Source of the DNA: FCB group bacterium
GTDB taxonomy: Bacteria > Fidelibacterota > Marinisomatia > SCGC-AAA003-L08 > JACNLC01
Length of the DNA: 52,379 nucleotides
Assembly: GCA_013152375.1 (NCBI GenBank)
Contig: JAADGM010000077.1
Span: 1 to 52,379 of the forward strand
Direction: 5' to 3'
Position 1 is the first letter of the stretch; every line of letters starts with the position of its first letter. A program made the translations under genes and the position numbers. Below the pieces are notes generated by a model that ran no database searches, was not told the origin of the DNA, and saw only the letters and a program-made list of their open reading frames with translations. Positions 1,634-18,718 of this stretch are shown piece by piece.

Positions 1634-3244
1634 TTATTTATTTTCCTCAAAATAAGGTTGGCCGGGTAATTTGAAATTGATCACCTGTTCTTTCATGGCT
1701 TTGCCGTCCACGGCTTTCCTGTCTTTGTAGAAATTCCATGTTTTCTGAACAGCCTTGTTATTCGTAAACTGAGTGCCGAGGTAGTAATCACGGTTTTCAA
1801 AACGATCCAGCCACAAGTCCCACTGGTCTTTGGAGAGCAGTCCCTTCTCGTAAGCGGCCTGGACATTCAATTTGACGCGCTCCCAGTAATCGTCGTAAGC
1901 TTTATAAACATATGGTGTCGTGTTCGTCATGGCTCCGATGCCCCAGGAATTTCCGGGAACATCATAAAGGGCGTAAGGCGTGAATTTTGCCGGACTGTTT
2001 GAAGTTACCCACTCCTCCGCCTCAGCGTCTCCGTGTTCAGCCGCCCAGGTGAGAAGTTCAACCATATCCTGCTGGATCTCCCACACCCCGTGCCACTGAG
2101 TATAATCAGCGCCCATCATCTCGGCACCGTGCCTGAATCTCCGCCCTTCGTGGTGCCAGGCCTTGTACATCAGGACCTCCGGCTCCTCATCCCAGCCGTT
2201 TAAAACCGGATTAGACATCATTTTATCATCAGCCTGAATTTGATTGATGAGACCGTTTTTGGTCAGTTTTTTGGTCCAGTAAACAAAGAACCGTCGCATT
2301 TCATTGTACTGCAAATTCACCAGATCAGCCGTAAGCAGGTACATCTGATAAAACCCGGGGGCGTGACAGCTCTGACAGATGGCCTCCATATTATCCCTTT
2401 TCTGCTGCCAGTCACCCAGGTTCTTCTCGTCCCACACTGTTCTGAAACTCCAGGGAGCCTGGGATTCCCAGGCGAGCCGGGCGCTGACATTATGGGTCAT
2501 GGGTTGGGATTCGTTACCGTCCATGTGGCAGGTTGTGCAAACGGGCGCCTCAATGGGGATGGGAGCATTGTCTTTAGAACTGAACCCCATATCCCAGTCT
2601 TTGCTCTTGGCCTTGAAGATGTTCCCGTGTTTGGATTCATTGTAGATTTCGATGTGCGGATGATCCGGACCGATATGGCATTCGCCACAGGTCTCAGGCT
2701 GTCTGGCTACAGCAATATCAAAACTGTGTTTGGGGTGACAGGCATCACATTCACCCACGCTGCCGTCGGGCCAGAGATTACCGATCTGATGGCATTGTTC
2801 ACAGCCATTCCGGGTACTTAAAGGATTTTCGAATGTTGCCCGGTCGGCATTTGCCAACAGCCAAAACTGATGGGCATGCTTGCTGTTATTAAATTCTGCC
2901 ACTTCTTTATCGTGGCATTCGGCGCAGTCTTTCGGCGTGGGATGCTTGGCAACCAGAATATCACTGCCCTCGCAGGTAAAGGCGTCAAAATCAGCTTTTT
3001 TCGCGGAATGGCATTCATAGCAGCCGACCTCATTGGCTGCATGCGCGCTGATGCCCCAGGCTTCAATTTGTTTTACGGCGATATTTTCTTTGCTGTGACA
3101 AGCGATGCATTTCGCCGACAGGTCATCGATCTCCAAAGCCGGGTCCAGTACGGGGGTTGTCCCTGCTGCCAGCATCGTCAGCAGCATACCGCACATCAGC
3201 ACCGCAGACCTGATGTTCAAAAGTTTGTGTTGGGTTGTTTTCAT
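1634..3244 (-). CDS. Octaheme c-type cytochrome, hydroxylamine oxidoreductase-like (HAO family)
   Basis: The 536-residue product starts with a signal peptide (hydrophobic residues about 12-30) and has eight CxxCH heme sites at residues 46, 75, 107, 148, 166, 186, 236 and 290. Number and spacing, plus a GPDHPH..IYNESKHG segment right after the sixth site and RHGAEMMGADYTQWHG near residue 390, fit the HAO family. The neighbouring Asp-His pair (194-195) corresponds to the conserved active-site pair as I recall it. Members oxidise hydroxylamine or hydrazine, or (in nitrate ammonifiers such as Campylobacter/Nautilia) are proposed to reduce nitrite. Next to narGHJI and narK, a reductive role is more likely; this is inference. 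No C-terminal anchor is present, so it should be soluble in the periplasm. Whether the C-terminal Tyr that cross-links heme P460 in oxidative enzymes is present could not be settled. A GAGGAG ribosome site precedes the ATG; the rrf2 gene ends 17 bases upstream. Confidence 0.85.
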   Translation of the reverse strand: MKTTQHKLLNIRSAVLMCGMLLTMLAAGTTPVLDPALEIDDLSAKCIACHSKENIAVKQIEAWGISAHAANEVGCYECHSAKKADFDAFTCEGSDILVAKHPTPKDCAECHDKEVAEFNNSKHAHQFWLLANADRATFENPLSTRNGCEQCHQIGNLWPDGSVGECDACHPKHSFDIAVARQPETCGECHIGPDHPHIEIYNESKHGNIFKAKSKDWDMGFSSKDNAPIPIEAPVCTTCHMDGNESQPMTHNVSARLAWESQAPWSFRTVWDEKNLGDWQQKRDNMEAICQSCHAPGFYQMYLLTADLVNLQYNEMRRFFVYWTKKLTKNGLINQIQADDKMMSNPVLNGWDEEPEVLMYKAWHHEGRRFRHGAEMMGADYTQWHGVWEIQQDMVELLTWAAEHGDAEAEEWVTSNSPAKFTPYALYDVPGNSWGIGAMTNTTPYVYKAYDDYWERVKLNVQAAYEKGLLSKDQWDLWLDRFENRDYYLGTQFTNNKAVQKTWNFYKDRKAVDGKAMKEQVINFKLPGQPYFEENK

Positions 3245-3261
3245 TTTTTCTCCTCGTTTGA

Positions 3262-3732
3262 TTAATTGTTAGTTGATTTGATTCCAGGGAATTTCATCCG
3301 GTCTCTGAACCATTCGTCGGAAGACAGCAAGGCGGCCTGCTCAAAGGTTGTCGTCTGAAGCCAGCGGATGATCTCCCCCTTAAAAGTGCTCCATTGGTCA
3401 TGGAAGGGGCAATATTCCTCGAGATTATCGCCGCAGCCGGGGATTCCCATGACACATTCGGTAAGAAATTTATCACCGTCAACTGCTGTAATTACATCGA
3501 AGATCATGATGCTGTCCGGTGTTTTTTTCAGATATACGCCGCCGGTTTTCCCCCGTGAGGAACCCAGGATCCCGATGGGGATAAGCCTGGCCAGGGACTG
3601 GGAAAGATACGCTGCCGGTGCATTCAGCTTTTCTGCCAGGGCATTGGCCGAAACGGTCTTGCCGAAGGGTTCCTTAAGCAAAAGCAGCAGGGCGGAGATA
3701 ACATACATTGAACGCTGTGAGATAAGTGCCAT
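3262..3732 (-). CDS. Rrf2-family transcriptional regulator with three conserved-position cysteines
   Basis: The product has the Rrf2 winged-helix pattern: an N-terminal ISQRSMYVISALLLL helix, the LAEKLNAPAAYLSQSLARL recognition region, then GILGSSRGKTGGVYL (wing). Next comes a cysteine loop, C-x6-C-x7-C, at residues 93, 100 and 108 counted from the chosen start. In IscR, NsrR and RsrR the equivalent three cysteines bind an Fe-S cluster that senses NO, redox state or cluster supply, so this protein probably does too. The ORF track starts 24 residues earlier at 3804. I prefer the internal ATG because the extra N-terminus is not typical of the family and a palindrome overlaps the upstream ATG; neither start has a strong ribosome site. 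The gene directly precedes the HAO-like gene and is likely to control it and itself. Confidence 0.8.
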   Translation of the reverse strand: MALISQRSMYVISALLLLLKEPFGKTVSANALAEKLNAPAAYLSQSLARLIPIGILGSSRGKTGGVYLKKTPDSIMIFDVITAVDGDKFLTECVMGIPGCGDNLEEYCPFHDQWSTFKGEIIRWLQTTTFEQAALLSSDEWFRDRMKFPGIKSTNN

Positions 3733-3803
3733 TTTAATTCTAATATCGTTGTTAGAAATTAAAACTCTGTTTTGATGCTGTGCAAATAATATCTCGTGGT
3801 CCA

Positions 3804-3821
3804 TATATCCTGATGGATATA
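3804..3821. promoter_or_regulatory. Palindrome TATATCC-TGAT-GGATATA upstream of rrf2, candidate operator
   Basis: Two perfect 7-base arms around a 4-base centre, lying 72 bases before the preferred rrf2 start and overlapping the ORF-track start codon. AT-rich inverted repeats of this size are typical of Rrf2-family operators, and autoregulation is common in that family. The assignment to this regulator is inference. Confidence 0.4.
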
Positions 3822-3920
3822 AATGGTACTGACATATATACGCGGCACCCTGACGCTATACATCGAGGTTGGGTTGAAATAAAGGATTTCCGGCTAGCCG
3901 CACGGAGGTTTGATGTGCAG

Positions 3921-3937
3921 CTTATGATCGTCATAAG
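3921..3937. promoter_or_regulatory. Palindrome CTTATGA-TCG-TCATAAG between narK2 and rrf2, candidate operator
   Basis: A perfect inverted repeat with 7-base arms and a 3-base centre, in the roughly 270-base gap between narK2 and rrf2. It has no T tract, so it is not a terminator. It differs in sequence from the palindrome at 3804, which suggests a second DNA-binding protein, for example a Crp/Fnr-type regulator, but no protein can be assigned from the sequence alone. The rest of this gap holds only an imperfect hairpin at 4015-4037. Confidence 0.35.
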
Positions 3938-4073
3938 ATCGTCTTGAACTGGCTTTCTGAAACCACACCGATGTGTAAGTCTGTCAGAAGCAACAGACCT
4001 ATGCCTCCCGGAGTCATCCCGAAAAGTATCGGGGATGTCACGTCCATTCAACCCAGACCGTACTTGAAGGTCT

Positions 4074-5720
4074 TTAGGGGTTCTTTACATAGGCGTTGGG
4101 ACGCATGTAGAACCACCAGTTCAGAGCCAGACAGATTGTGTAAAAAATAGTGAATCCATAGAGCGCATATTCCGGTGTGGTGGCCTTGATCTGCTCCCCG
4201 AAAACTTTGGGAATGATAAAAGCTCCGTAGGCAGCAACGGCCGATGTCCACCCGAGAACAGGTCCCGCCTGTTCCTCGTTGAAGACCACAGCAATGGTCC
4301 TGAAGGTTGAGCCGTTCCCTACACCGGTAGCGGTAAACAAAACAATAAACAGGAGAAAAAAGGGCAAGAAGTATTGCTCGGGAGTGGCCGACTGGTAAGC
4401 CGCAGACATAAAATATGCTACACCCAGAGCGGAGGCGATCATCACTGCAGAAACGATCTGTGTGATCTTTGCACCGCCTACCTTATCCGATATCCAGCCG
4501 CCGACGGGTCTGATGAGTGCTCCGATAAAGGGTCCCATCCAGGCAAACATGAGGGCACTGGGTCCGTTTGGGTTAATGGCGCTGTGGACAAGTGTTCCGT
4601 CAGGTCCCGGAACATGCGTAAAACCGAAGATTACCTTTATCGCCAGTGGGAATGCTGCAGAATACCCGATAAATGACCCGAATGTCATGGTATAAATAAT
4701 GGTCATCGCCCAGGTGTGTTTATTATTGAAAATTTTATATTGGCGCTTGAGATTTTCTTTCATCGCTCCCGGTGACAGGGACTTCATTAAGAAGACGGTC
4801 AATCCGATGATGAGGGGCAAAATGATCCACTTATTCTTCAAAACAGCGTCTGTGAACCAGCTTCCACCTTGCAGTCCGGTGGGGGCGGGAAGAATAAAAT
4901 ATAGTCCCACCGCCGCCGTGAGAAAACCTATGAGCAGCAGATAACTGATCCGGGCAAATGCCATTAGCGGGCTCCCCGGATTTGGCGTGACGGCCTCTGA
5001 AACGATATTGTTCATTTTGAACCATCCGAAAAATGCCAGCGGCACCAGAAAAATCAGCCACACAAATCCGGCGTTCTGGATCCACGCATTGGTTCCGGCA
5101 GGGATCTTGCCGATGAGTGTCCCACTGGTATTCACCAGCACCATGGGATCGCCGGAGAGTCCGCCAAACAGGGCAAAAGTCATCACCAGCGGAACCAGTA
5201 TCTGCATGGTGGTCACCCCAAAATTCCCCAGTCCCGCATTAAGCCCCAGAGAAGTACCCTGAACTTTTTTTGGGTAGAAAAAACTGATATTGCTCATGGA
5301 GGAAGCAAAGTTGCCGCCACCGAATCCCGACAGAAAAGCCAGGAGCTGGAATATCCAGAGGGGCGTGTTTTTGTCCTGGAGAAATATCCCGGCGCCGAAG
5401 GCGGGGATCATGAGCAGTGCTGTAGTGAAAAAGATGGTATTTCTGCCACCGGCAATCCGGATAAAAAATGTACTGGGGATGCGGAGCGTAGCGCCGGTCA
5501 ATCCGGCAATTGCAGTGAGCGTGAAAAGCTGGGACTGTGTGAAAGGAAATCCCAGATTCAGCATCTGGACCGAGATGATCCCCCACATAAGCCAGACCGC
5601 GAATCCAACCAGCAGACTGGGGATTGAGATCCATAAATTCCGGTTGGCGATTTTCTTTCCGGTGGCCTGCCAGAAGTCATCATTCTCTACGTTCCATTCA
5701 GTAATATTAATTTGAGACAT
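4074..5720 (-). CDS. narK: NarK-type nitrate/nitrite transporter (NarK2-like, MFS)
   Basis: A 548-residue polytopic membrane protein of the major facilitator superfamily with about 12 hydrophobic segments. It carries the nitrate/nitrite porter signatures: GATLRIPSTF with the substrate-binding arginine (near residue 97), FGGGNFASSMSNISFFYPK (near residue 150) and GALIRPVGGWISDKVGG (near residue 410) with the second conserved arginine. It resembles the E. coli NarK / NarK2 branch, generally regarded as nitrate/nitrite antiporters that export nitrite made by the cytoplasmic-facing NarG site. A long cytoplasmic N-terminus of about 30 residues is present. An AAGGAAG ribosome site precedes the ATG. 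It is the second of two consecutive narK genes, 33 bases after the first. Confidence 0.9.
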   Translation of the reverse strand: MSQINITEWNVENDDFWQATGKKIANRNLWISIPSLLVGFAVWLMWGIISVQMLNLGFPFTQSQLFTLTAIAGLTGATLRIPSTFFIRIAGGRNTIFFTTALLMIPAFGAGIFLQDKNTPLWIFQLLAFLSGFGGGNFASSMSNISFFYPKKVQGTSLGLNAGLGNFGVTTMQILVPLVMTFALFGGLSGDPMVLVNTSGTLIGKIPAGTNAWIQNAGFVWLIFLVPLAFFGWFKMNNIVSEAVTPNPGSPLMAFARISYLLLIGFLTAAVGLYFILPAPTGLQGGSWFTDAVLKNKWIILPLIIGLTVFLMKSLSPGAMKENLKRQYKIFNNKHTWAMTIIYTMTFGSFIGYSAAFPLAIKVIFGFTHVPGPDGTLVHSAINPNGPSALMFAWMGPFIGALIRPVGGWISDKVGGAKITQIVSAVMIASALGVAYFMSAAYQSATPEQYFLPFFLLFIVLFTATGVGNGSTFRTIAVVFNEEQAGPVLGWTSAVAAYGAFIIPKVFGEQIKATTPEYALYGFTIFYTICLALNWWFYMRPNAYVKNP

Positions 5721-5753: not shown

Positions 5754-7298
5754 TTATTCTTCAGCAAACGCATTTTTAGGTTCGTCCAGCATGAAGAAAC
5801 AAATCAGAAAACTGATGGCTGCACCAGAGGCAATGGCCAGGAAAAATGTTTTGGAATCCACCAGTGAGAACAGCACCAGATAGAAAACCGCCCCGACATT
5901 TCCATAGGCCCCGGCCATTCCGGCGATCTGACCGGTCATCCGCCGCTTGATCATAGGGATGACCGCAAAGGTCGCCCCCTCGGCACCTTGTACAAACATG
6001 GAGCAAAGGATGGTGATGAACACGGAGACCACGAGCCACCAAATACCGTTGAACATGGGAATGATGGTTTGAACGCCGTCCACAACGGGGCCGTACTTAC
6101 CGATTTGCGCCATGCCGAAGAATCCAAGTGCGATCCCCACCATGTAGATGAGCATGGTCCGCTTCCGGTTGCTCATGCTGTCAGAGATCAGGCCCCCCAG
6201 CGGCCGTGCAAACAGATTGACGAAAGCAAATGACGCCGCGATCAGGCCGGCAAGGGTAGGTGTCATGATCAGACTTCCGGCGGAATTTGTGAGATTGGTA
6301 AAAGTAGTTTCAAAAAACATTGGCAGCATTGAGACCACAGCCAACTCGGCACCAAAATTGGCGAAATAAGTGCTGTTCAATGCGGCGACACTCCCCCAGT
6401 GATATTTCTCATTTTCGGGCACACCGGCTTTTAAAATGGGCAGATTGATCTGAAGCACTTTAATCACATGCGCCAGATAGATCAGCCCCAAAACCCAATA
6501 TACCGCCATGAGGACGGTATGCGATATAAGAGGCACACCTTCAACCCTCACATTACCGATACGCCAGGCGAGGATGCCCATGGCTCCCACCAGGGGAAAA
6601 GACCATACCAGATACTGGATCAGGTCACCATAAGAGGACACGGTCATAGGTTCCGTCTTTTTTGTTTTGTTGATCTGTTTTCCGGTAGGTCCGTCTGTAA
6701 CCAAAAAGTAATACCAGATACCGTAGATGAGGGAAACAAGACCATTGATCGCTAAGGCATAACGCCAGGAATTGCCATCCAACCCCAGAAAATCGTTGAA
6801 AAAATGAATTGCCAGCCAGGGCAGGGTCATTGCCGCCCAGGCCGAGCCGAAATTGCCCCACCCGGCGTAAAAGCCCTCAGCCCGACCGATCATCTTTGGC
6901 GGAAACCAATTGGCGACCATTTTGATTCCCACTACGAATCCGGCACCGATGGACCCTAATATCAACCGGGAAATGAGCAGCTGGGTAAAGGAATTTCCAA
7001 ATGCGAAAAAGAAAACTGGAATAGCCATACTGACCATGAGTCCGGAAAATACGATTCTGGGTCCGTAGCGGTCAATGAGCGCACCGATAACAATGCGCGC
7101 CGGTATGGTGAGCGCCACATTACAGATGGCCAGGACTTTGATATGCTCCTTAGTGAGCCAGTTGAGATTCCTCAGCATCGTCGTGGCCACGGGAGCCATA
7201 TTAAACCAAACGAAAAACGTAATGAAAAAGGCGATCCACGTGTAGTGTAAAACCCGTATTCTTTCCTGGCTGAAGTCAATGAGTTCAGGTTTGTTCAT
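5754..7298 (-). CDS. narK: NarK-type nitrate transporter (NarK1-like, MFS)
   Basis: A 514-residue MFS protein with about 12 membrane segments. Near residue 125 it has GIKMVANWFPPKMIGRAEGF followed by YAGWGNFGSA, and an early FFVWFNMAPVATTM segment, both typical of the NarK1 type, thought to bring nitrate in with protons. A conserved arginine-rich loop ARIVIGALIDRYGPR is near residue 68, and LFARPLGGLISD in the second half. The extra membrane segments in the middle and the FAEE end are unremarkable. An AAAGGA ribosome site precedes the ATG. It lies 44 bases after narI and immediately before the NarK2-like gene. The order K1 then K2 is the same as in the fused NarK of Paracoccus, here as two separate genes. 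Confidence 0.88.
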   Translation of the reverse strand: MNKPELIDFSQERIRVLHYTWIAFFITFFVWFNMAPVATTMLRNLNWLTKEHIKVLAICNVALTIPARIVIGALIDRYGPRIVFSGLMVSMAIPVFFFAFGNSFTQLLISRLILGSIGAGFVVGIKMVANWFPPKMIGRAEGFYAGWGNFGSAWAAMTLPWLAIHFFNDFLGLDGNSWRYALAINGLVSLIYGIWYYFLVTDGPTGKQINKTKKTEPMTVSSYGDLIQYLVWSFPLVGAMGILAWRIGNVRVEGVPLISHTVLMAVYWVLGLIYLAHVIKVLQINLPILKAGVPENEKYHWGSVAALNSTYFANFGAELAVVSMLPMFFETTFTNLTNSAGSLIMTPTLAGLIAASFAFVNLFARPLGGLISDSMSNRKRTMLIYMVGIALGFFGMAQIGKYGPVVDGVQTIIPMFNGIWWLVVSVFITILCSMFVQGAEGATFAVIPMIKRRMTGQIAGMAGAYGNVGAVFYLVLFSLVDSKTFFLAIASGAAISFLICFFMLDEPKNAFAEE

Positions 7299-7342: not shown

Positions 7343-8032
7343 TTAAATGAACCTTTGGTTTCGGTTCCAATTCCAGCGAACCATCTGGGGTTTCCGCCAG
7401 AGATAGGGATTCGGGACAACCAGCACATGCACGAGCCGTGAAAAGGGAAAAAGCAATACAAGCGTCCAGGCACATACGATATGCAGCTGCACGATCCAGG
7501 GCAGCGGAGTGATATAATTGATCTGGGGATTCAACTGCAGGAGTGAGACAAGATAAGGATTAGCAATGGCTGTAAACCATGAACTCCCCCAGGAATTGAA
7601 GGCCGCCGTCCCCAATCCGGAAAGGATCTGCAGGAAAAGCAGAGACAGAACAATCCAGTCCATGCGGCTGGTGACAATTTTCGCTTTGGGGTTCGTCCAT
7701 CTGCGCAGGAAGATTGCGAGTATTCCCGCCAGCGCGAACAGGCCTCCCATGAAAGCGCTTATTTCGAGGATGTATAAGCGGGTGAGCTCGCTGTTCCAGG
7801 CGAGTATCTGCCCGGGAAGCAGGAACGCCGCCAGATGCCCCAAAAGCACAAAGATGATACCGAAATGAAACGGTACGAGCCCCCAGAAATGGACCCTGTT
7901 TTCCAAAAACTGCGAAGAGAGACTGGAATAGGAAAACCCGTGGCTGATATAACGGTAAATTGAGAAAAAGATGAACGTGAACACCGCCACATAGGGCAAT
8001 ATTCCGTAGAGTATCATGCTAAAATACGTCAT
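7343..8032 (-). CDS. narI: Respiratory nitrate reductase gamma subunit (cytochrome b)
   Basis: A 229-residue protein with five hydrophobic segments that anchors NarGH in the membrane and takes electrons from menaquinol through two b hemes. Counted from the chosen ATG, histidines 56 and 66 (in PFHFGIIFVLLGHL) and 184 and 202 (in QLHIVCAW and SRLVHVL) occupy the positions of the four heme ligands of E. coli NarI (56, 66, 187, 205). The ORF track starts at a TTG at 8038; the ATG at 8032 is preferred because it lies 7 bases after a GAGG ribosome site. narJ ends only 2 bases before, as usual in narGHJI operons. Confidence 0.92.
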   Translation of the reverse strand: MTYFSMILYGILPYVAVFTFIFFSIYRYISHGFSYSSLSSQFLENRVHFWGLVPFHFGIIFVLLGHLAAFLLPGQILAWNSELTRLYILEISAFMGGLFALAGILAIFLRRWTNPKAKIVTSRMDWIVLSLLFLQILSGLGTAAFNSWGSSWFTAIANPYLVSLLQLNPQINYITPLPWIVQLHIVCAWTLVLLFPFSRLVHVLVVPNPYLWRKPQMVRWNWNRNQRFI

Positions 8033-8034
8033 GG

Positions 8035-8565
8035 TCAATCCTCATTTATTGAATATTTTTTTGTCAGATGTGTCTGCAGTGCCAGGATACATGAACGATA
8101 TGGATTGTCCTCAGGGACAGCGTTTACGATCTTTCCCAGAGCCGGGTTAATATAGGTTTGGGTGAATGAAACCGCATTATCGGGACTGAGGTTCTCAAGC
8201 ACCAGCAGACAATGGCTGAGATGGTCGGGCAGTTCTGATGTTTCGGGAATACCGAAATTTCTGAGATACTGTCTCATTGTTACCAGAAATTCCCCCCTTT
8301 TATAAGTTTCACCGTAGAGGTGCCAGCCCAGTTCCAGGCAGCAGTCGGGGTTCAGATCAAAAGTATAGGTAAAGGCTTCCTCGAGTCCTGCCAAATTCAA
8401 CCCGGCGACGGCCTCTTTGAAACGAGCCAGCATACCGGAAACCTCCGGTGACAATCCCGCTGACTCTGCGAGAGAACCGACGGCTTCCTGATACTCAGTT
8501 GTCGGATAGGAAAAGACGGTGGCGAACAGCCGATAACAGGACTGCGCAGTCCGGGTCATTTCCAT
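8035..8565 (-). CDS. narJ: Nitrate reductase assembly chaperone (delta subunit)
   Basis: A 176-residue, mostly helical protein of the NarJ/TorD redox-chaperone family. It inserts the molybdenum cofactor into NarG and holds NarGH until it docks on NarI. Recognisable features are YRLFATVFSYPTTEY near the N-terminus, the acidic centre LEEAFTYTFDLNPDCCLELGWHLYGE.YKRGEFL (the most conserved NarJ block) and the ELPDHLSHCLLVL segment. Sequence conservation in this family is low outside the central block. It starts 4 bases after narH with a GAGAGGA ribosome site and sits in the standard position between narH and narI. Confidence 0.9.
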   Translation of the reverse strand: MEMTRTAQSCYRLFATVFSYPTTEYQEAVGSLAESAGLSPEVSGMLARFKEAVAGLNLAGLEEAFTYTFDLNPDCCLELGWHLYGETYKRGEFLVTMRQYLRNFGIPETSELPDHLSHCLLVLENLSPDNAVSFTQTYINPALGKIVNAVPEDNPYRSCILALQTHLTKKYSINED

Positions 8566-8569: not shown

Positions 8570-10060
8570 TTACAGTCCTCTCACTGGTTTTTCACGAAAA
8601 CCAAACCCGGCATGCTGCTTGTACTCAAGCGGATCGTTCAGCATTTCGATAGCTTCTTCCCGGTGTGCCGGTGGTATGACGAAGCGGTCCTCGAGGGTGG
8701 CAATGGACGTAAGATGATAGATTTTTTCGGCTTCTTCCACTGTGCAGTCGGCCGATTTGAGCATCCCGGCCGCTTTTTCCAGGGAGATATCACCCACTGT
8801 CTTTGCCCGGCGCCAGGTCCGGACAGCCATTTCTTTTTTCAGAACATATCTCATTTTCTCACTGTCGCCGGCTGAGAAAAGGCTGCTTAAAAATTCAATG
8901 GGTACCCGTGCCTGGTCAAAATCAGGGAAAATTCCGTCGGCCATATTTTTTCTGGCTTCACCGTCCATAGAGGAGATTACCGGGAGCATCGGGGGAACAT
9001 AAAACAGCATGGGGAAGGTCCGGTATTCGATATGGGGCGGCAGGGCTAATTTCCAGACTTTAACGAATTTATAGACGGGGGATTCCTGTGCAGCCTGGAT
9101 TGTGTGTTCATGGACACCGTTTTCTGCAGCCAGCCGGATAATTTCAGGATCGAACGGGTCGAGGATCATGTCCCGCTGGGCATCAACCAGTTCGCGGTCC
9201 GTTTTCCCCGCCATGGTCTCAATTTTGTCTGCGTCATACAGAAGAACTCCCAGATAGCGGATCCTGCCGACGCAGGAATGAAAGCAGGCCGGTGCCTGAC
9301 CGGTTTCGATGCGGGGGAAACATAAAATACATTTCTCCGATTTTCCGGTGGTCCAGTTGTAATAGGTTTTTTTGTACGGGCAGGCAGCCACGCAAGATCG
9401 CCATCCCCGACACCGGTTCTGATCGATCAGTACGATTCCATCTTCACCCCGTTTGTACAATGCCCCCGAGGGACAGGAGGCCACACAGGCAGGATTAAGA
9501 CAATGGTTACAGATACGCGGGAAATAAAATAAGACCAGCCTCTCAATGGCAAACAACTGCTGTTTCTGTTCTTCGGTCAGGGCGCTGAGGTTTGGATCAT
9601 TTTGTGCATAGAGAGGTGAGCCGCCTAAATCATCGTCCCAGTTGGGGCCGGCTTCAATATCGATATATTTGCCTGTGACCATCGATTTGGGCAGAGCCGT
9701 GGGCTGGTCATCTCCCTGGGGTGCGTTGAACAGATTCTGGTAATCATAAGTCCAGGGTTCGTAATAATCGTCCATGGTGGGTAAGCTGGGATTATGAAAA
9801 ATATTTGCCACAATTCGAGCCTTACCGGTTGATTTAAGCCGGAGCTTGTTGCCGTCTTTTTCCCAGCCTCCGCGGTACTTTTCCTGGTCTTCCCATTTTG
9901 TCGGAAAGCCCGTCCCTGGTTTTGTTTCGACATTATTCCACCACATATACTCGGTGCCTTTACGGTCTGTCCAGATATTCTTGCAGGCGATGCTGCAGGT
10001 GTGGCAACCGATACATTTATCGAGATGAAAGACCATTGAAATCTGACTGCGAATGTTCAT
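8570..10060 (-). CDS. narH: Respiratory nitrate reductase beta subunit (Fe-S electron transfer)
   Basis: A 496-residue Fe-S protein carrying electrons from NarI hemes to NarG. Four cysteine groups are visible: CIGCHTCSIAC at residue 16, CNHCLNPACVASC, CRGWRSCVAAC and KCILCFPR..GQAPACFHSC. The Trp in CRGWRSC replaces a cysteine, which is the NarH hallmark that makes one centre a [3Fe-4S] cluster. The ORF track begins 42 residues upstream inside narG; the correct start is the ATG at 10060, preceded by AAGGA and giving MNIRSQISMVFHLDK, the usual NarH N-terminus. It lies 19 bases after narG. Confidence 0.95.
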   Translation of the reverse strand: MNIRSQISMVFHLDKCIGCHTCSIACKNIWTDRKGTEYMWWNNVETKPGTGFPTKWEDQEKYRGGWEKDGNKLRLKSTGKARIVANIFHNPSLPTMDDYYEPWTYDYQNLFNAPQGDDQPTALPKSMVTGKYIDIEAGPNWDDDLGGSPLYAQNDPNLSALTEEQKQQLFAIERLVLFYFPRICNHCLNPACVASCPSGALYKRGEDGIVLIDQNRCRGWRSCVAACPYKKTYYNWTTGKSEKCILCFPRIETGQAPACFHSCVGRIRYLGVLLYDADKIETMAGKTDRELVDAQRDMILDPFDPEIIRLAAENGVHEHTIQAAQESPVYKFVKVWKLALPPHIEYRTFPMLFYVPPMLPVISSMDGEARKNMADGIFPDFDQARVPIEFLSSLFSAGDSEKMRYVLKKEMAVRTWRRAKTVGDISLEKAAGMLKSADCTVEEAEKIYHLTSIATLEDRFVIPPAHREEAIEMLNDPLEYKQHAGFGFREKPVRGL

Positions 10061-10079: not shown

Positions 10080-13000
10080 TTACCACTTGAGTTCCGGGAG
10101 CTTACGGACCAAAATATGGGTATCGCGGTTATTCCCCACGGGTCCCCAGTAATTGAAATGATATGTGAACTGACCATAACCACCAACCATCAGATTGGGT
10201 TTCAGCCGCGTACGCGTGAGGCTGTTATGTCCGCCGCCACGGCGATTCCCGCGCATGGGAGATTTCGGTACTGACAATGTCCGCTCCGGAGAGTGATATT
10301 GAATGCAGATACCGGTGGGTATCCTTGCGCTGACACAGGCGCGGGTCACAACTACCCCATTGTCATTATAGACTTCGACCCAATCGTTATCATTGATCCC
10401 GATATCTTTAGCGTCTTTATCGTTCATCCACAGGGGTTCCACACCTCTGGAAAGTGTTGACATTCTGTGGTTGTCTCCGTAGGTGGAGTGAATATGCCAT
10501 TTCCCATGTGGCGTAAGGTAATTCAGCATTTTGGTTTGAGTCTCCTCCTTGCTGAAATGGATGTCCGAATACTGCTTTACGGTGGGTTTTGGTTTATACG
10601 TGGGTACATGTTCACCGAATTCAATATATCCCGGATGATCCAGGTAAAAATGCTGCCTGCCGGTGAGCGTTCTCCAGGGAACCAGTTTTTCTTTGTTATA
10701 TGTGAAGGGAGCGTAAGCCCTTCCGTCGGTGACGAGTCCTGACCACATGGGACTGTTCACAAATCGGCGGGGCTGGGCGATAATATCCTCGAAAGATACG
10801 CGGAAGTCGCGGCTTTTTTCAACCAGATCAGCCAGAGGAAGCCCTACGCGTTTCTCCATGTTCTTATAGGATCGGTATGACAACTCACCGTTTGTTACCG
10901 TGGCCAGGTGCAGAATAAGATTGCATACGTGTTTATCCTTGAACAAAGAGGGGTACTTCTCACCTTCCCATTCAACCGTTGGGTCGGTTTCCAGCATTTT
11001 ATCGTAAAAATCATCGATTTGATAACCGGTGCCATGAGCGCCAATACCGTTGTCCCGTGCCTTTCTTCCGAAGGATATGTACTGGTGATAGAGATTGCGG
11101 TAATCCCGTTGGACGATTTTCAAACCGGGCATCGTTTTTCCCGGCAGCGCTTCAATCTCTCCTGTAATCCAGTCTTTGATCTCAGTCTGCGCAATCTCCG
11201 CCGGCGTATCATGGGGTAGAGCTGCGGCGATCACATCGGTAACCTTATCCGGGAAATGGGCTTCGGCCAGCTCGGAAAACCGCTTGGAAATTGCTTTAAA
11301 AATATCCCAGTCGCTTTTGGTCTCCCAGACCGGCGGCACCGCTTCCGAGAGCGGATGGATAAAACTGTGCATATCCGTTGAATTCAGATCATTTTTCTCA
11401 TACCAGGTAGCGGCCGGCAAAACAATATCGGAGTACAGGGCCGATGTATCCATGCGGAAATTCAGATCAACCACCAGGTCCATCTTCCCCTGCGGGACTT
11501 TATCATGCCAGGTGACTTCTTTTACGGAGTCCTTTGCAAAGTTGCTGTCCCCGATGTGATTTTTATGCGTCCCGAGATAGTGATCCAGAAAGTATTCATG
11601 ACCTTTGGCGCTGGACATGAGGGCATTTCCCCGCCAGATGTACCAGATCCTGGGCCAGTTTTCGGCGGCATCAGGGTCCTCCACCGAAAATTTCAATTCC
11701 CGTTTTTTCAGTTGGTCCACAATGTATTTTTTAATATCTTTTTCGTCCGATGAGCCGGTAGCTTTAATGGCTTCTTTGACCAGATCCAGCGGATTTTTAT
11801 TGAACTGTGGATAAAAGGGCAGCCAGCCGTTCCGGACGGCTTTGATCTGCGTATCCACGGCATGACCCCGGGCAAAACAATTTTTGTCCTTATTTTTCGG
11901 TACTGAATGATATTGGGTAAATTCTTTTTCATAACGCCACTGGTCAGTGTGGATATAATGCCAGCTGGGGGCATTCTGCAGGCGCTGACCATCGAACCAG
12001 TCTTTACCCAGAGCAACGGCTCCCCATGATTCCCCGGGAGCCAGTTTTTCCTGTCCCACATAATGTGCCAGCCCGCCGCCGTTAACACCCACACATCCGC
12101 ACAGCATTAAAGCATGGATACCCGCACGATACATGAGATTTCCATGATACCAGTGATTGATCCCTGCACCGATAATGATCGTGCACTTACCGTTAGTCAG
12201 TTCGGCGGTCGTACCCCACTCGCGGGCGAATTTAATCAGATTATCTTTGGACAGTCCGGTATATTTTTCAGACCATGCCGGTGTATAGGGCAGGTCCGGG
12301 TCTTCGTAATCAACGGGGTAGTCGCCGTCCAGTCCGCGATTTACGCCATACTGCGCCATCATGATGTCATATACGGTGGTTACCAGTACCGTTTCACCCG
12401 AATCCGTCTTGAGCGCTTTGACCGGGACTCCCCGGGTGCGCGTAGTATCATTTCCGAAATCATCAAACTTCACTTGTGCAACCGAATCGTGCTGATCCAG
12501 AAAAGTCAGGGTTGGGTCAATGGGTGAATCGTCCACACTGTCCTTCAGCTCCAGGTTCCACTTGCCCTGATTGGTATCCCAGCGGTGCCCCACGGTTCCT
12601 TTCGGCATTTTCGGTGAGGAAGTAGTTGAATCCCACATGAGAAATTTCCAATCGCCATTATTTTCGGCTTTATATGAAGTCAACCGGTTGGCGCGAAGTA
12701 ATTGGCCCGGTGTGTAAATTCCGTCGGTTTCGCTGATTTCCACCAGCATGGGCAAATCTGTAAATTGTTTTGAATAGTTGATAAAATAGGGAGTTTTCTT
12801 TTCATGGTGGAATTCTGTCAGCAAGACATGGTTGACGGCCATCCACCAGGCGCCATCCTGACCGGCGTTGATGGACATCCACTCATCGGCATATTTGGCC
12901 ACCTGGTTGAAATCCGGTGAAAAAACCACCATTTTGGTTCCGTTATGGCGGGATTCAGCGGCAAAGTGACAGTCCGGTGTGCGGGTCATGTTCAGATTAG

Positions 13001-13730
13001 AACCCATCACCGCCAGCATTTTGGCATTATACCAGTCGGCGGATTCATTTACATCCGTTTGTTCGCCCCAGGTTTCGGGAGAAGCGTTCGGAAGGTCGCA
13101 ATACCAGTCGTAAAAAGACAGAGAGACGCCGCCCATGAGCTGCAGCATCCGCGAACCGGCAGCATAGCTGACCATGGACATGGCCGGGATCGGTGAAAAA
13201 CCGGTGATTCTGTCTGGACCATATTTCCGGATCGTGTAAATATTCGCAGCGGCAATAAGGTCCAACACGGTATCCCAGTTGGTACGGCGAAAACCACCCT
13301 TACCCCTGGCAACCTGCCACTGCTTCCGCTTGACCGGGTCTTCCACCATAGACTTCCAGGCTTCAACCGGGTCTTCGTACAATGCTCTGGCATTTGACCA
13401 TAGATCAAGTAAAATTCCGCGAATATAAGGATATTTCACCCGTAACGGGCTGTACAGATACCAGGAATAGGATATCCCCCGCTGACATCCCCTGGGTTCA
13501 TAGGCCGGGAGCGAACTTTCGAGTTTAGGATAGTCCAGACCCTGCATTTCCCAGGTGACGATACCGTCTTTCACATGGATATTCCAGGTGCAGCTCCCCG
13601 TGCAGTTTACTCCGTGAGTACTTCGGACAATCTTATCGTACTGCCAACGGTTTCGGTAGAATTCCTCCCATTGTCTTTGATGGGGGACCACATCGTCCCT
13701 GATCCAGCCGTTTTTTGATTTTTCAGTCAT
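10080..13730 (-). CDS. narG: Respiratory nitrate reductase alpha subunit (Mo-bisMGD catalytic)
   Basis: A 1216-residue molybdoenzyme that reduces nitrate to nitrite. Near the N-terminus [11 protein letters not shown] followed by PRGCQRG gives the His-Cys3 pattern (H39, C43, C47, C82) that binds the FS0 cluster. The [19 protein letters not shown] block near residue 210 is the segment that supplies the aspartate ligand to molybdenum in E. coli NarG. Later blocks ([65 protein letters not shown]) are also typical. The N-terminus lacks a twin-arginine signal, so the active site should face the cytoplasm, unlike the exported archaeal-type NarG. Length is close to E. coli NarG. The gene starts 10 bases after the cytochrome c gene. 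Confidence 0.96.
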
Positions 13731-13740: not shown

Positions 13741-14580
13741 TTATTTTGTGGATTTTATAAAATATTTACCAGCCGATACCATGGGTTTTCGCACCGCCAT
13801 AAACCGGCGGTTCCAAATGCCCCCGATGAGCACAAACAACAGCAGGGTCGCAAGTGCGCCGTAAAGTATGAAATTGGCTATTGAGGCCAGTGTGGGGGCA
13901 CTGGCAGTTTCGGCTTCATTTTTCAAAAAGGCAGTGAGTGAGATTATTTCAGTTTCAGTCAGTGGGCGTTTTGAAAAGATGGGATTCATTGTTGGGACCG
14001 GAGGTAATTTAAGCCAGTTGGTAAGCCCTCTCACCTCACCGAGTTTTTTATAGGCGCCTGTGAGATTGTGCCCAAGTTTGCCGCCGCCAAGTCCGAACAT
14101 ACTGTTAATATTATGACAGGAGACACAGGGAGCGGCGCCGTTTGCCAACTTCTTTTTCCCGAGGAATAGATTTTTACCGGCAATTATATCGTCGGTAGTA
14201 AAGGTAGGAGGTACGTAGGAATCAGCGACAGCAGCACCCGAAACCGATTGTGTTTTAATGTAATCCAGCAACTGTCCGGCAAGGGTCTCATTAATGCCGG
14301 GCGCCGGTGTCATCGCAGCACCATTGGCCTCTCTCAGCAGTTTTGCGGCATAGGCATCACCCGAGGCCAGGACCCCTGCGGGATCCATGATCCATTGAAC
14401 CAGCCAGGGCCGGTCTTTGCGTTCTTCAACTCCCTTCAGGTCAGGGCCAACGAGCCTGCCGCCACCGATTGTATGACAGACTTTACAATTCGCTTTAAAA
14501 TACTGACCCGGATCAGTTTGTGAGAAAACGACGGATATGCCCAAGGCGGCAAGACAAAATAACCCTATCTTTAAATTCAT
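13741..14580 (-). CDS. Membrane-anchored diheme cytochrome c of the nitrate operon (NarC-like)
   Basis: A 279-residue protein with an N-terminal signal peptide (about 1-20), two cytochrome c domains with CKVCH at residue 32 and CVSCH at residue 152, likely distal methionines (M90 in AAMTP and M198 in PTMNP), and a C-terminal membrane segment (about 233-254) followed by a basic tail. It would sit on the outer face of the cytoplasmic membrane. Thermus nitrate operons also start with a diheme cytochrome (narC) ahead of narGHJIK, where it serves the nitrate reductase. The same position here suggests electron transfer to or from NarI or a role in assembly. It could alternatively deliver electrons to the periplasmic HAO-like protein. 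A GAGGGG ribosome site precedes the ATG. It is the first gene of the nar operon. Confidence 0.8.
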
Positions 14581-14639: not shown

Positions 14640-14654
14640 ACAACTATTGTGCCT
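14640..14654 (-). promoter_or_regulatory. Candidate sigma54 promoter for the nar operon
   Basis: On the - strand the sequence AGGCAC-AATAG-TTGT matches the -24/-12 pattern TGGCAC-N5-TTGC with correct spacing and two mismatches, about 60 bases before the first ATG of the nar operon. The last base (T instead of C in the -12 element) is at a normally well conserved position, so this is tentative. It is supported by the NtrC-type activator gene directly upstream. The rest of the 14581-14991 gap holds the palindrome at 14847 and no gene. Confidence 0.3.
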
Positions 14655-14846
14655 GAAGTTTGCACGGGGCTTCAAATTCTTTGAAAAATACAGATTACTT
14701 CAATAATAATATTTGGATAAATCTATCAAAGGCTATGGCTCCGGTGACTTCTTTAAATCCTGTAAGTCCACACCGGTGCATACCGGAAAATGCTGCATAT
14801 CCACTAGAATTTGAATATCCTGATATTTGATAAGGGGTTATACTGT

Positions 14847-14864
14847 TGCATACAAAGGTATGCA
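14847..14864. promoter_or_regulatory. Palindrome TGCATAC-AAAG-GTATGCA, candidate activator binding site
   Basis: A perfect inverted repeat with 7-base arms, about 200 bases upstream of the candidate sigma54 promoter, the distance at which NtrC-family activators commonly bind. An imperfect second copy starts 70 bases closer to the promoter, at 14777 (TGCATAC-CGGA-AAATGCT). The neighbouring two-component regulator is the obvious candidate to bind it; this is inference. Confidence 0.45.
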
Positions 14865-14991
14865 GAAGATTAAACCTGGCAGAAGAAAGTATTAAAGAAA
14901 CTCAAACCGGATACTTTTCATCTGCTCCGGGGAAAGTCTATCGACAGCTGTTTGGTCCTTTTAAACTTCTATCATGATACGGTGCAAGAGA

Positions 14992-16392
14992 CTACCTGAA
15001 ATCGATTTTTTTCATGATCCGCTGGAATGCGGCCCGTGTGAGTCCGCATAGTTCGGCAGCATGGGTGATATTCCCATTGGTTTTTTCCAGGGCATTGCGC
15101 AGATACCGCTTCTGGAAGGATGCGATCGCATCCTGCTTGCCTGCCTCATAGGAGGGGAAATCACTGAAGATTTCTTTAATGGAAAGAACGCCGGTACCTA
15201 TCCCCAGGTCAGAGGGCAGGATCTTCTCCCGGTTGCACATCACCAGCGCCCGCTGGATGGTGTTCTCAAGTTCTCTTACATTTCCCTTCCAGTCGTGGTT
15301 AATGAGTGATGTCATCGCAGACTGCGTCAGGCGGGGAGGTCTGGCCTCTGCACCGAATAATTCCGCCGTGAATCGGGTGATGAAATACTCGGATAGCGCC
15401 GGTATGCTGGCCTTGCGTTCATTCAGGGTTGGCAGTTTGATCTTAACAACCTGGATCCGATAGAGCAGGTCATCACGGAATTGACCCTCTGTAGCCAGGG
15501 ATGTCAGATCTTTATTTGAGGCTGTGATCAGCCGGAATTCCACTTTTCGATTTTCCTGCGTACCCAGCGGCCTGACGATTTTATCTTCCAGCACTCTCAG
15601 CAATTTGCTCTGGAAATTAGGTGACATTGAAGAAATTTCATCGAGGAAAATGGTCCCGCCGCCGGCTTGTTCAAAGATGCCTTTCGAGTCCGTATGTGCG
15701 CCGGTAAAGGCCCCCTTCCGGTAGCCAAAGAGTTCGGATTCAAGCAGCGTATCGGGAATTGCCGCGCAGTTGATGGCCAGAAACTGAGCCTGGCGGACAC
15801 TGCTTTTCTCGTGGATTGCCCGGGCTACAAGTTCTTTCCCGGTGCCGCTGGCGCCTTCAATTAACACGGGCACCGATGTGGGCGCAACCTGCTCAACACT
15901 TTGAAGCACCTTCAACATCAGTTGATCTTCGGCGATGATGATGGAATGCCCCCGGAATTTCTTTGACCGCTCGGCAGCATAATTACGTGAGAGGATCTGA
16001 TAACCCGCTCTTTCCACAAACCGCAGGATCTCCTGATTGTCAAACGGTTTTGTGATGTAGTGAGCGGCACCGTTCTGAAGGCAGTGCACGGCCATTTCGA
16101 TCGTACCAAATCCGGTGATCATAATAACCTCAACGCCGGACTGATGATGGGTAATCCAGTCCAGCAATTCTATCCCGGACATTCCCGTCATTTTAATGTC
16201 TGTAAAAACGATGTGATAAGAGTCCTGCTCTAAAAGTGATACCGCTTCTTCACCACTGGCTGCAATATCGACAGAGCAGTGCAGGGTGGATATCAGTTTT
16301 TGGAGTCCCCGGCGGACATCGGCCTGATCATCTACGACCAGAACCCGCAATGCTTCCAGACTTATTTTTAGCTGTGTTGGCCTGTTTTTCAT
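14992..16392 (-). CDS. NtrC-family sigma54-dependent response regulator
   Basis: A 466-residue regulator with three parts: a receiver domain (VLVVDDQ near residue 17, phosphorylated Asp in FTDIKMTG near residue 65, lysine in YITKPF), a central AAA+ ATPase with Walker A GASGTGKE (about 180), the sigma54-contact loop GAFTGA (about 227) and Walker B TIFLDEI, and a C-terminal Fis-type helix-turn-helix (NITHAAELCGLTRAAFQRI). It should activate sigma54 RNA polymerase when phosphorylated by the kinase encoded just upstream. The track start is a TTG at 16404; I prefer the ATG at 16392, which follows CAGGAG, though the spacing is short. Its position directly upstream of the nar operon, on the same strand, suggests it controls nitrate respiration. 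Confidence 0.9.
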   Translation of the reverse strand: MKNRPTQLKISLEALRVLVVDDQADVRRGLQKLISTLHCSVDIAASGEEAVSLLEQDSYHIVFTDIKMTGMSGIELLDWITHHQSGVEVIMITGFGTIEMAVHCLQNGAAHYITKPFDNQEILRFVERAGYQILSRNYAAERSKKFRGHSIIIAEDQLMLKVLQSVEQVAPTSVPVLIEGASGTGKELVARAIHEKSSVRQAQFLAINCAAIPDTLLESELFGYRKGAFTGAHTDSKGIFEQAGGGTIFLDEISSMSPNFQSKLLRVLEDKIVRPLGTQENRKVEFRLITASNKDLTSLATEGQFRDDLLYRIQVVKIKLPTLNERKASIPALSEYFITRFTAELFGAEARPPRLTQSAMTSLINHDWKGNVRELENTIQRALVMCNREKILPSDLGIGTGVLSIKEIFSDFPSYEAGKQDAIASFQKRYLRNALEKTNGNITHAAELCGLTRAAFQRIMKKIDFR

Positions 16393-16426
16393 AATCTCCT
16401 GCAATCGGGTTTTGTAATAAGTAGAA

Positions 16427-18718
16427 TCATCTCAAAGCTCCTTTTTCCCCTGGGCTGTGATGGCCGAATTCTCCGCCCCCCTGGTATCGAAAGGGCAGGA
16501 CAATCCTGAATACTGTAAAACGGGGTCTGTTCTGTAACAAAATCACCGAGCCGCCATGGGCTTCGGCAATCCGCTTTCCGGTAGATAATCCCAGGCCGGT
16601 GCCCATATCACTCCCTCGTGTGGTGAAAAAAGGATTGAAAATATCTTTCACGATGGCTGGATCGATCCCCGGTCCGGTATCTTCAACGTCAATAACTATC
16701 ATCTGCCTGTCATCATCGTTGGAAGTCCGAATTCTGACCTGACCTCCAATCTCTTTCACAGCCTGAATGGCATTCAGGATAATATTGGCAAAGATCTGTT
16801 TCAACCTGCTTAAATCCCCTTCGATTTCCGCCTGTTCCGCATCCAGATACAATTTAACGGCTATATTAGCCTTTTCATGCAGCGGGACCAACAGGCGTAT
16901 GGTTTGATTAATGACCTCATGGATATCCACCTTGCTGATATTCAGTGTGGGAGTTCGGGCAAAATCCAACAGATTTGTGATGATTTCACGACAGGTTTCC
17001 GTATTTCTTCGAATGACATCAACGTGTTCGGTGAATTGGGAGTCCTGGTCGAATTCATCCATCATCATCTGATTATACATGGAAATCGCTGCCAGGGGGC
17101 TGTTCATTTCGTGGGCAACCACTGCTGCCATATTTCCCAGCACTGCCAGGCGTTCCTGCCGGGCATGTTTATCGTGCATCAGCGTTCTTTCGGTTATGTC
17201 TCTGGCCACCAGTATTTTCCCCGCACCTCCGCTCATGGCCGGCAGCTTCGTGGCCAGAATTTCAAAGAAACGCTCTTCCATTTTTACTGTACAGTCCTGC
17301 ATGGACGAAATATCCATCAGGCAGTTGACGCATTCTCTGGCAGTTGATTTTTCAGGGTGTTTGCATTCGAATTTTTCGAGCTGTTTATCAGGTGAATTCA
17401 AATAAGCGATCAGCGGTTCACCGGCCTGATTGTGAAGCACGATCTCACCGGCGCTGTTGAGCAGGATCAAACCGTCATTCATCGAATTCACAACCGCTTT
17501 CAAACGGTCGTGCTGAATGCGGATTACTTTTTCACGTTCGGTTAAGTCAGCGGCTGTTTTTTTCAGTACCCGCGTTCTTTCTTCCAGCGCTTCAGCCATC
17601 TGATTGAAGCTGGTGGCAAGGTCACCGATCTCATCTTCTGAATCCGTTACCACCCGGGCGGAATAATCCCCCTCTTTGATGTTAAAAGCCATCGTCTCAA
17701 GCTCACTTAGAGGCTGTATGAGAAACCGTACCGGGAAGTACATGGCAATCAGGATCAAAAGAGCGATGAGCAGTCCGACGAAAAAAAGTTTTTCTTCCAA
17801 AACAGAGATGGTTTTCAATGCACTTGAAGTTCCCAACTCAACCAGGATCGTCCAATTAACATACTTCAGGGGGAAACTGTAGCCAAACATATCCTCGCCG
17901 TCTCTGCAGATGTGTCGGCCTTCATGGGAATTTGCTCCCGGGGCGTAACCCTCAGTAGGCCGCTTCAGGTTCAGATCGATTAGCGCGACATTTTCCCGTT
18001 CATTCAATGTCCACCAGGGAATATCGAGAACACTGCCGGTCTGATCGATAAAAGAGAGATATTTTTCCACATCTGAAAATGACATGGCCTTTTGATATTG
18101 GCCTGAAATGTAATTGATAACACTGCGGAAATCCACGACACACACCAGATAGCCGATATGTTGTGTCTGATGAATATTGATCAGAGGAGTCACAATGGCA
18201 AATTGCGGCTCGTTATTCCCCGCTGCAGATTGAAACAGAGGACTGTACCACAATGTATCCTGTCCCAATCCTGCTGAAAGCATACGGCGGAGCCGGTCAT
18301 CGGACGGGAACACGGATACAAGCAGATTTGAATTGTTGTCAAATACCAGAAGGTTCGAGAATTCCTCAACGATGGGCAGTTTATTGATCAGCAGGTGATT
18401 TATCAGACGCTCTTTCGTTTTTGACTCCGTTTGCGGGTCGGTTTCAAGAAGTTCCGTCTGTGTCCGGATAAAGCCGTCCGATGCGAAATCCTGTGAGCGC
18501 CGCCCCAGCAGCAGCAGATGCTGATCGAAAACAGAGGCCTGGGCCACTGTTTCACTTTTCAGACGGGTCTGGATTTCTCTGGACAGGCTGGCATGGACGG
18601 ATTTAATAATGAGAAATCCACCCAGCCCAAAAGCGATTAAACTCACCATGACAAAGCTCAGCGGCAGTTTGTATTTTATGCGGAGTTTCGCCAGAGGATC
18701 TTTTTGTAACCAGTTCAA
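16427..18718 (-). CDS. Membrane sensor histidine kinase, Cache-HAMP-PAS(4 Cys)-HisKA-HATPase
   Basis: A 763-residue kinase with a membrane segment at about 21-38, a periplasmic sensing region of about 270 residues with a double-Cache look, a second membrane segment (about 310-330), HAMP (330-383), a PAS domain (about 400-512), the phosphoacceptor His 536 in VVAHEMNSPLAAI, and a HATPase domain with N box NIILNAIQAV and G boxes DTGPGID and GTGLGLS. The PAS domain has four cysteines in the order C452-x10-C463-x2-C466-x9-C476, which could hold an Fe-S cluster or act as a redox switch. It starts with TTG, 7 bases after AAGGG. The partner regulator follows 34 bases downstream. Nitrate, nitrite or redox are likely signals, by context only; no NarX-type P-box was recognised. 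Confidence 0.88.
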   Translation of the reverse strand: MNWLQKDPLAKLRIKYKLPLSFVMVSLIAFGLGGFLIIKSVHASLSREIQTRLKSETVAQASVFDQHLLLLGRRSQDFASDGFIRTQTELLETDPQTESKTKERLINHLLINKLPIVEEFSNLLVFDNNSNLLVSVFPSDDRLRRMLSAGLGQDTLWYSPLFQSAAGNNEPQFAIVTPLINIHQTQHIGYLVCVVDFRSVINYISGQYQKAMSFSDVEKYLSFIDQTGSVLDIPWWTLNERENVALIDLNLKRPTEGYAPGANSHEGRHICRDGEDMFGYSFPLKYVNWTILVELGTSSALKTISVLEEKLFFVGLLIALLILIAMYFPVRFLIQPLSELETMAFNIKEGDYSARVVTDSEDEIGDLATSFNQMAEALEERTRVLKKTAADLTEREKVIRIQHDRLKAVVNSMNDGLILLNSAGEIVLHNQAGEPLIAYLNSPDKQLEKFECKHPEKSTARECVNCLMDISSMQDCTVKMEERFFEILATKLPAMSGGAGKILVARDITERTLMHDKHARQERLAVLGNMAAVVAHEMNSPLAAISMYNQMMMDEFDQDSQFTEHVDVIRRNTETCREIITNLLDFARTPTLNISKVDIHEVINQTIRLLVPLHEKANIAVKLYLDAEQAEIEGDLSRLKQIFANIILNAIQAVKEIGGQVRIRTSNDDDRQMIVIDVEDTGPGIDPAIVKDIFNPFFTTRGSDMGTGLGLSTGKRIAEAHGGSVILLQNRPRFTVFRIVLPFRYQGGGEFGHHSPGEKGALR

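Follow-up and report, generated by a model that had tools for sequence, protein, structure and literature searches.

A NarGHJI locus with an adjoining epsilonHao-type octaheme cytochrome: a probable route from nitrate to ammonium in an uncultured marine bacterium

Contig JAADGM010000077.1 of assembly GCA_013152375.1, analysed here over its entire length of 52,379 nucleotides and called the window below, carries on its minus strand the genes for a membrane-bound nitrate reductase, NarGHJI, together with a gene (hao) for an octaheme cytochrome of the HAO-like family. We consider it likely that this locus serves nitrate respiration to ammonium, with the octaheme protein acting as a periplasmic nitrite-to-ammonium reductase downstream of Nar. 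Relatives of this hao gene sit with the nitrate reductase Nap and the window copy sits with Nar, and the locus is therefore a re-wired version of the known Nap/epsilonHao pathway, which is to say a new arrangement and not a new pathway. The source is an uncultured marine bacterium; public octaheme loci from its phylum carry the label Candidatus Neomarinimicrobiota, and the corresponding tree labels read Fidelibacterota. The window (contig C106) is one of 150 contigs of a 2.6-Mb genome that is 89% complete, and every genome-wide absence reported below is subject to that completeness.

In the pathway that we propose, a histidine kinase/response regulator (HK/RR) pair with a sigma54-type activator would switch on the genes from narC through narGHJI to two narK copies. 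NarGHI would draw on quinol to turn nitrate into nitrite inside the cytoplasm, and the NarK proteins would exchange nitrate and nitrite. The exported octaheme protein would then reduce nitrite to ammonium in the periplasm with six electrons, as is held for epsilonHao enzymes. An adjacent Rrf2-family regulator, probably an Fe-S sensor of nitrite or NO stress, would govern hao separately, and the electrons for the octaheme would be supplied by contig C143, through its quinol-oxidising Rieske/cytochrome b/9-heme cluster, or by another multiheme cytochrome. What the analysis shows directly is the gene order, the family memberships, the conserved residues, the compared neighbourhoods and the lack of standard nitrite reductases; the substrate and product of the octaheme, nitrite export by NarK2 and the flux, the electron donor and the regulation are inferred.

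The octaheme cytochrome

1634..3244, minus strand: octaheme HAO-like protein of the epsilonHao type (PF13447, 90 bits; eight CXXCH motifs)

The Cys and His residues that bind the hemes are all invariant across 29 aligned members of this protein family. An epsilonHao protein is recognized by a Trp that replaces the cross-link Tyr and by a Met eight residues earlier (PMC8940962). The window protein carries these residues as M376-x7-W384, which is its sole conserved pair of such spacing; both are invariant in 30 of 30 members of the immediate subfamily (subfamily A), and the Trp is present in 56 of 56 members of the wider aligned set. Because our alignment with NeHAO stopped short of its Tyr467, the cross-link position is assigned through the published M-x7-W signature. 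An Asp-His pair after heme motif six (D194-H195) is also invariant. A further Cys outside the heme motifs, C91 after heme 2, is invariant in a seven-member alignment (A1).

Both by profile and by fold, the nearest solved structures are 4qo5 (IhOCC of Ignicoccus hospitalis) and then 6h5l (Kustc0457/0458 of Kuenenia), and cross-linked HAOs rank behind them. Neither structure has a Tyr at the position equivalent to W384, which in the profile alignment is occupied by Phe in 4qo5 and by Trp in 6h5l, although identity in the fold alignment is only ~19-23% and the gene contexts differ. The structure model of the window protein is of moderate quality (pLDDT 69, TM ~0.5) and served only for ranking known folds. 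Members of the octaheme subfamily also have a conserved C-terminal extension (residues ~410-536) that runs ~125 residues past the sequence match to 4qo5; the match to the phylum's remaining octaheme subfamilies likewise stops short of it.

The window hao groups with Neomarinimicrobiota copies in the tree (support 92/99), on an end branch of 0.49 against a median of 0.14, or ~3.5 times longer. Its product begins with MKTTQHKLLNIRSAVLMCGMLLTMLAAGTTP, which by eye resembles a signal peptide, whereas relatives in the subfamily start with a hydrophobic anchor of the QQWLIGIFSxLLIVxLIIVAG type that has no obvious cleavage site.

Neighbourhoods of the octaheme orthologues

We compared the gene neighbourhoods of the closest HAO-like homologues, a check that an earlier reading of the window from its sequence only (hereafter the sequence-only reading) had proposed. 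A search of the phylum returned close orthologues in seven genomes, at 65-71% identity. In these genomes, read as far as each contig extends, hao ends a cluster of genes for a small napM-like multiheme cytochrome, napA, an Fe-S protein, napD, a napG-like Fe-S protein, napH, a Rieske protein and cytochrome b. A scan of GTDB genomes yielded 31 orthologue loci from Neomarinimicrobiota, Calditrichota/KSB1, Ignavibacteria/Melioribacteraceae and Kryptonia, whose octahemes are 60-72% identical to that of the window. Cytochrome b lies immediately upstream of hao in all 30 loci that have upstream sequence, and a Rieske gene lies upstream in all 29 that extend far enough; NarG was found in none of those 30. 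NapA (59-100% identical to the reference from locus L031) occurs in 20 of the hao loci and a divergent molybdoenzyme in two. The window thus departs from the Caldithrix-type arrangement, in which NapA, Rieske and cytochrome b stand beside hao, and has NarGHJI instead.

Genomes of the same family add a second comparison. Two of them, G181 and G180, carry the order HK-RR-NarC-NarGHJI-NarK-NarK, with NarG 88% and 84% identical to that of the window. The gene after narK2 is unrelated in both, so that the Nar module there is without hao, and a different octaheme is encoded at another genomic site. A third genome, G182, has a Nap-type cluster and no match to NarG. One family therefore holds three combinations: hao is absent from the Nar loci of G181 and G180, accompanies Nap in G182 and accompanies Nar in the window.

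An assembly chimera was considered as a source of this linkage. The base composition of the HAO and Nar genes agrees with that of the housekeeping genes in the window, and the codon usage of the longer ones also matches; hao itself has a GC content of 0.51 and a codon-usage correlation (r) of 0.81 with the housekeeping genes, against a GC content of 0.35-0.46 for most relatives' loci. A chimera is therefore unlikely, and the AGCS gene at the right flank of the window, 93% identical to a copy in a genome of the same genus, argues in the same direction.

Three other arrangements were seen among the loci examined. Two Kryptonia loci (L066 and L079) combine epsilonHao, Rieske and cytochrome b with a divergent molybdoenzyme (34-44% identical to NapA) in place of NapA. 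Locus L114 (contig C65 of genome G094) has on one strand a Rieske-cytochrome b-octaheme set, several further genes, and then Rrf2-NarC-NarGHJI-NarK-NarK; its octaheme is 30% identical to the window protein. Locus L119 (contig C19 of genome G129) has on one strand narGHJI, two narK genes, a ScdA/RIC-like gene and alternative complex III-like genes, followed by a porin-like gene, an octaheme HAO-like gene and moaA-like and moaC-like genes, so that a quinol-oxidising complex possibly stands between Nar and the octaheme. The octahemes of L114 and L119 are more distant from the window protein.

The Nar module

16427..18718, minus strand: NtrB-like sensor histidine kinase (open reading frame)
14992..16404, minus strand: NtrC-type sigma54 response regulator (Pfam Response_reg, Sigma54_activat and HTH_8)
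13741..14580, minus strand: NarC-like membrane-anchored diheme cytochrome c (two CXXCH, C-terminal hydrophobic segment, Pfam Cytochrom_C)
10080..13730, minus strand: narG, cytoplasmic-type nitrate reductase alpha subunit (TIGR01580, 1516 bits; cut-off 1084)
8570..10060, minus strand: narH, beta subunit, start MNIRSQIS (TIGR01660, 664 bits; cut-off 524)
8035..8565, minus strand: narJ, chaperone (PF02613 over cut-off; TIGR00684 50 bits, just under 59)
7343..8038, minus strand: narI, heme b subunit (TIGR00351, 115 bits; cut-off 106)
5754..7298, minus strand: NarK-type nitrate/nitrite transporter 1 (TIGR00886, E 9e-83, 278 bits, under cut-off)
4074..5720, minus strand: NarK-type nitrate/nitrite transporter 2 (TIGR00886, E 9e-85, 285 bits, under cut-off)

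The genes named in the sequence-only reading (kinase, sigma54 activator, NarC-like cytochrome, NarGHJI, two NarKs, Rrf2 regulator and octaheme) can all be confirmed as intact genes of the minus strand, in the order HK-RR, NarC-NarGHJI-NarK-NarK, Rrf2-octaheme HAO. NarG, NarH and NarI exceed their curated cut-offs, NarJ is present, and the NarG N-terminus has no RR (Tat) signal, all as expected of a membrane-bound NarGHJI. Comparison with loci L109 and L110 places the narH start probably at 10060 and not at 10186. The Nar modules of L109, L110 and L107 are preceded by an orthologue of the kinase (70%, 53% and 43% identical, respectively), and narC lies upstream of narG in every other Neomarinimicrobiota Nar locus that extends that far. 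The Thermus-type narCGHJI system is similar in having a c-type cytochrome gene before narGHJI and NarK transporters, but the window differs in its control by HK/RR-sigma54 and Rrf2 proteins; the Thermus-type system is not known to have an epsilonHao partner.

Predicted regulation and the question of detoxification

14847..14864: predicted response-regulator box upstream of narC, TGCATAC-N4-GTATGCA (exact palindrome)
3262..3732, minus strand: Rrf2-family regulator with three Cys, C-x6-C-x7-C (PF02082, 80 bits)
3732..3764: predicted Rrf2 operator abutting the revised rrf2 start, TTTTAATTTCTAA-N8-TTAGAATTAAAA (inverted repeat, core 3739-3756)

The proposal that these genes form one complete island holds insofar as they share a strand, but two long intergenic gaps predict at least three units. 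Ahead of narC is a gap of 411 nt that contains an enhancer-like repeat, and a 341-nt gap separates narK2 from the rrf2 start, which is most likely 3732 and not 3804, given that the shorter form scores slightly better. The palindrome before narC has 0.09 chance occurrences expected in the window when up to 2 mismatches are allowed, and similar boxes, paired and 71 bp apart in both genomes, precede narC in G181 and G180. It is likely to be the site of the sigma54-dependent regulator. By eye there is no clear -24/-12 site for a sigma54 promoter of narC, for which no formal scan was made.

The three Cys of the Rrf2 protein make it a likely Fe-S sensor. The arms of its predicted operator differ by one base in length, and hence the site was missed by the inverted-repeat finder. 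The core, TCTAA-N8-TTAGA, also occurs upstream of rrf2-hao in locus L026 (genome G002) and upstream of hao in locus L045 (genome G125). Three of the four distinct core matches in 1.6 Mb of loci are hao-linked sites, in a collection of loci that was chosen around hao. A single match within the window alone is not above chance, and it is the recurrence at hao loci that carries the weight. Given the distinct boxes at narC and rrf2, nar and hao look to be under separate control.

Such separation is also what might be expected if the octaheme served detoxification. The Rrf2 protein would sense NO or nitrite stress and induce the octaheme to clear nitrite, NO or hydroxylamine leaking from Nar, with ammonium as a by-product and the octaheme not acting as a main electron sink. 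This alternative, which we regard as unlikely although it has the best claim among those weighed here, gains from the dedicated regulator and its recurring box, from the Fe-S-sensor-like Cys set, from the missing energy-conserving Rieske/cytochrome b partner at the locus, and from the fact that neither Hcp nor NorB was found in the genome for removal of hydroxylamine or NO. However, the orthologues lie inside respiratory nap-Rieske-cytochrome b clusters, and the pathway supports growth in Caldithrix (PMC5317091).

Electron supply to the octaheme

The window encodes no quinol dehydrogenase for HAO and no NapC/NrfH-type partner (haoC, the Campylobacterota form). Other contigs of the genome encode NapC-like domains, within larger multihemes. 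The cytochrome b of the Nap clusters has no close homologue in the genome, only a 40% identical one on C143, whose Rieske/cytochrome b/9-heme cluster is common to the family; from this missing Nap-type cytochrome b we infer that the genome is without NapA, for which no search was made. Because the Rieske/cytochrome b partner is missing at the window locus, electrons probably come from the C143 cluster, the best candidate source, or from another multiheme cytochrome. Contig C82 (L139:2532-4520) encodes a 662-residue protein with 17 CXXCH motifs and a NapC-like N-terminal part that adjoins an 11-heme protein; it is a possible quinol-to-multiheme conduit.

A different arrangement would have the octaheme freed from Rieske/cytochrome b and tied to Nar, with the membrane-anchored diheme NarC drawing electrons from the Nar/quinol side and passing them on to the octaheme, by then a soluble protein, so that one Nar-driven unit reduces nitrate inside the cell and nitrite outside it to ammonium. 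We think this quite unlikely. The related idea of a single self-contained relay encoded by the window, advanced in the sequence-only reading, is contradicted by the two Nar modules of the same family that are without HAO, by the seemingly separate control regions and by the absence of a window-encoded donor for HAO.

Nitrite reductases elsewhere in the genome

The absence of NrfA, NirK and NirS had been noted for the window, and a profile search extends it to the genome: NrfA (PF02335) is absent, and 10 related genomes are likewise without a match over cut-off; NirS, NirB-like nitrite reductase and NorB were not found; and no NirK exceeds its cut-off. The NirK candidate on contig C53 is a CopA/laccase-like multicopper oxidase that scores 68-90 bits, well short of the cut-off of 296, and the NorB candidate, a single COX1 match, is a CcoNO oxidase. 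Hcp (PF03063), the hydroxylamine reductase of the reverse-HURM route, is absent from this genome and from seven related genomes.

Two other proteins could handle nitrite. A second octaheme of 415 residues (C101; L049:1713-2960), with homologues in several Neomarinimicrobiota, keeps the signature Trp and has His in place of the Met. The siroheme protein encoded on contig C37 combines two NIR_SIR repeats with a ferredoxin domain; in Acididesulfobacillus, a putative sulfite reductase and AsrABC were candidates for the nitrite step beside NarGHI (PMC10949509). Nitrite from Nar might accordingly be reduced in the cytoplasm by the C37 protein, or excreted, with the neighbouring HAO incidental. We judge this improbable. 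The C37 gene lies among cysH-, cysteine-synthase- and TusA-like genes, and sulfur assimilation is therefore its simpler role; its best NCBIfam match is sulfite reductase subunit C, its NirB score is 94 against a cut-off of 578, and there is no NirBD in the genome.

The suggestion that the HAO-like protein is the nitrite-handling enzyme thus gains strength from the epsilonHao signature, the reductive octahemes nearest to it, the Nap-clustered family and the lack of a standard nitrite reductase, although the C37 protein and the second octaheme keep alternatives alive. Several points count against a periplasmic nitrite-to-ammonium reductase working downstream of Nar. Only one genome is seen to link this hao to Nar. 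With 150 contigs at 89% completeness, another reductase is possibly unseen, and the sulfite-reductase-like protein of C37 and the octaheme of C101 remain as alternative nitrite reducers. The long end branch and differing N-terminus mean that the function of the window hao could have drifted. Finally, the product may differ from ammonium, because the Kuenenia enzyme without the cross-link has been described as making NO.

An octaheme that acts like Kustc0458 would release NO and make the organism a partial denitrifier. Kustc0458 belongs to the second nearest solved structure (6h5l), and PMC10732223, citing Ferousi 2021, describes enzymes of this class as reducing nitrite to NO. We hold this outcome to be very improbable, since the genome is without NorB, the nearest structure is IhOCC, and Caldithrix, which bears an orthologue, makes ammonium. 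Oxidation of hydroxylamine as in nitrifiers is extremely unlikely: the fold family is common to HAO and HOX, but the Tyr that is cross-linked to heme 4 in oxidative (P460) HAO is, by the published signature, Trp in all 56 homologues, and the orthologues stand beside nitrate reductases.

Comparison with published systems and significance

Neomarinimicrobiota are widespread in low-oxygen seas. If Nar is indeed paired with an octaheme that forms ammonium, then scoring genomes by nrfA, nirK and nirS only would mislabel some as reducing ‘nitrate to nitrite only’, when they may retain nitrogen as ammonium. Furthermore, the occurrence of one octaheme family with Nap (outside) or Nar (inside), and with or without Rieske/cytochrome b, constitutes a natural experiment through which the electron supply of epsilonHao can be tested.

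The sequence-only reading cited an HAO-based route of this kind as proposed for some Campylobacterota, but the route is not confined to them: Nap-linked hao clusters have been published for Caldithrix abyssi (PMC5317091) and for Deferribacteres (PMC6896113). Caldithrix abyssi grows by reducing nitrate to ammonium without NrfAH and has a Nap/Rieske-b/epsilonHao cluster, Cabys_2564-2556 (PMC5317091). The octaheme subfamily is the same (an orthologue, L059, from a Caldithrix metagenome-assembled genome is 72% identical), as are the proposed NrfA-free route and the proposed feeding from quinol through Rieske/cytochrome b. In contrast, nitrate reduction there relies on periplasmic Nap and not on NarGHJI, the Rieske and cytochrome b genes adjoin hao there but are missing from the window, and the orthologues have an anchor-like N-terminus where that of the window protein is signal-peptide-like.

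The epsilonHao/reverse-HURM system of Campylobacterota, as in Nautilia profundicola (PMC3701875), also uses an HAO-family octaheme for nitrite reduction and forms ammonium from nitrate without a canonical NrfA. However, it is based on Nap, a quinol dehydrogenase of the NapC family and Hcp, whereas the window relies on Nar and encodes no partner of the NapC family, and its genome lacks Hcp. In the napMADGH-hao clusters of Deferribacteres (PMC6896113), a Nap-linked Hao is proposed for ammonification, and the genomes of some members also carry narGHJI, but there the description places hao together with nap and hcp, and no member lacks nap. Compared with these published clusters, just two features look new within the open-licence literature: the linkage to Nar and the missing Rieske/cytochrome b partner, which has been lost.

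Other sequence features of the window

Scans of the window for sigma70 promoters and terminators returned roughly chance-level numbers. The 3' end of hao is followed by one hairpin, common to the convergent gene.

1572..1600: intrinsic-terminator-like hairpin 3' of hao, with an 11-pair stem and T-rich tails on both sides

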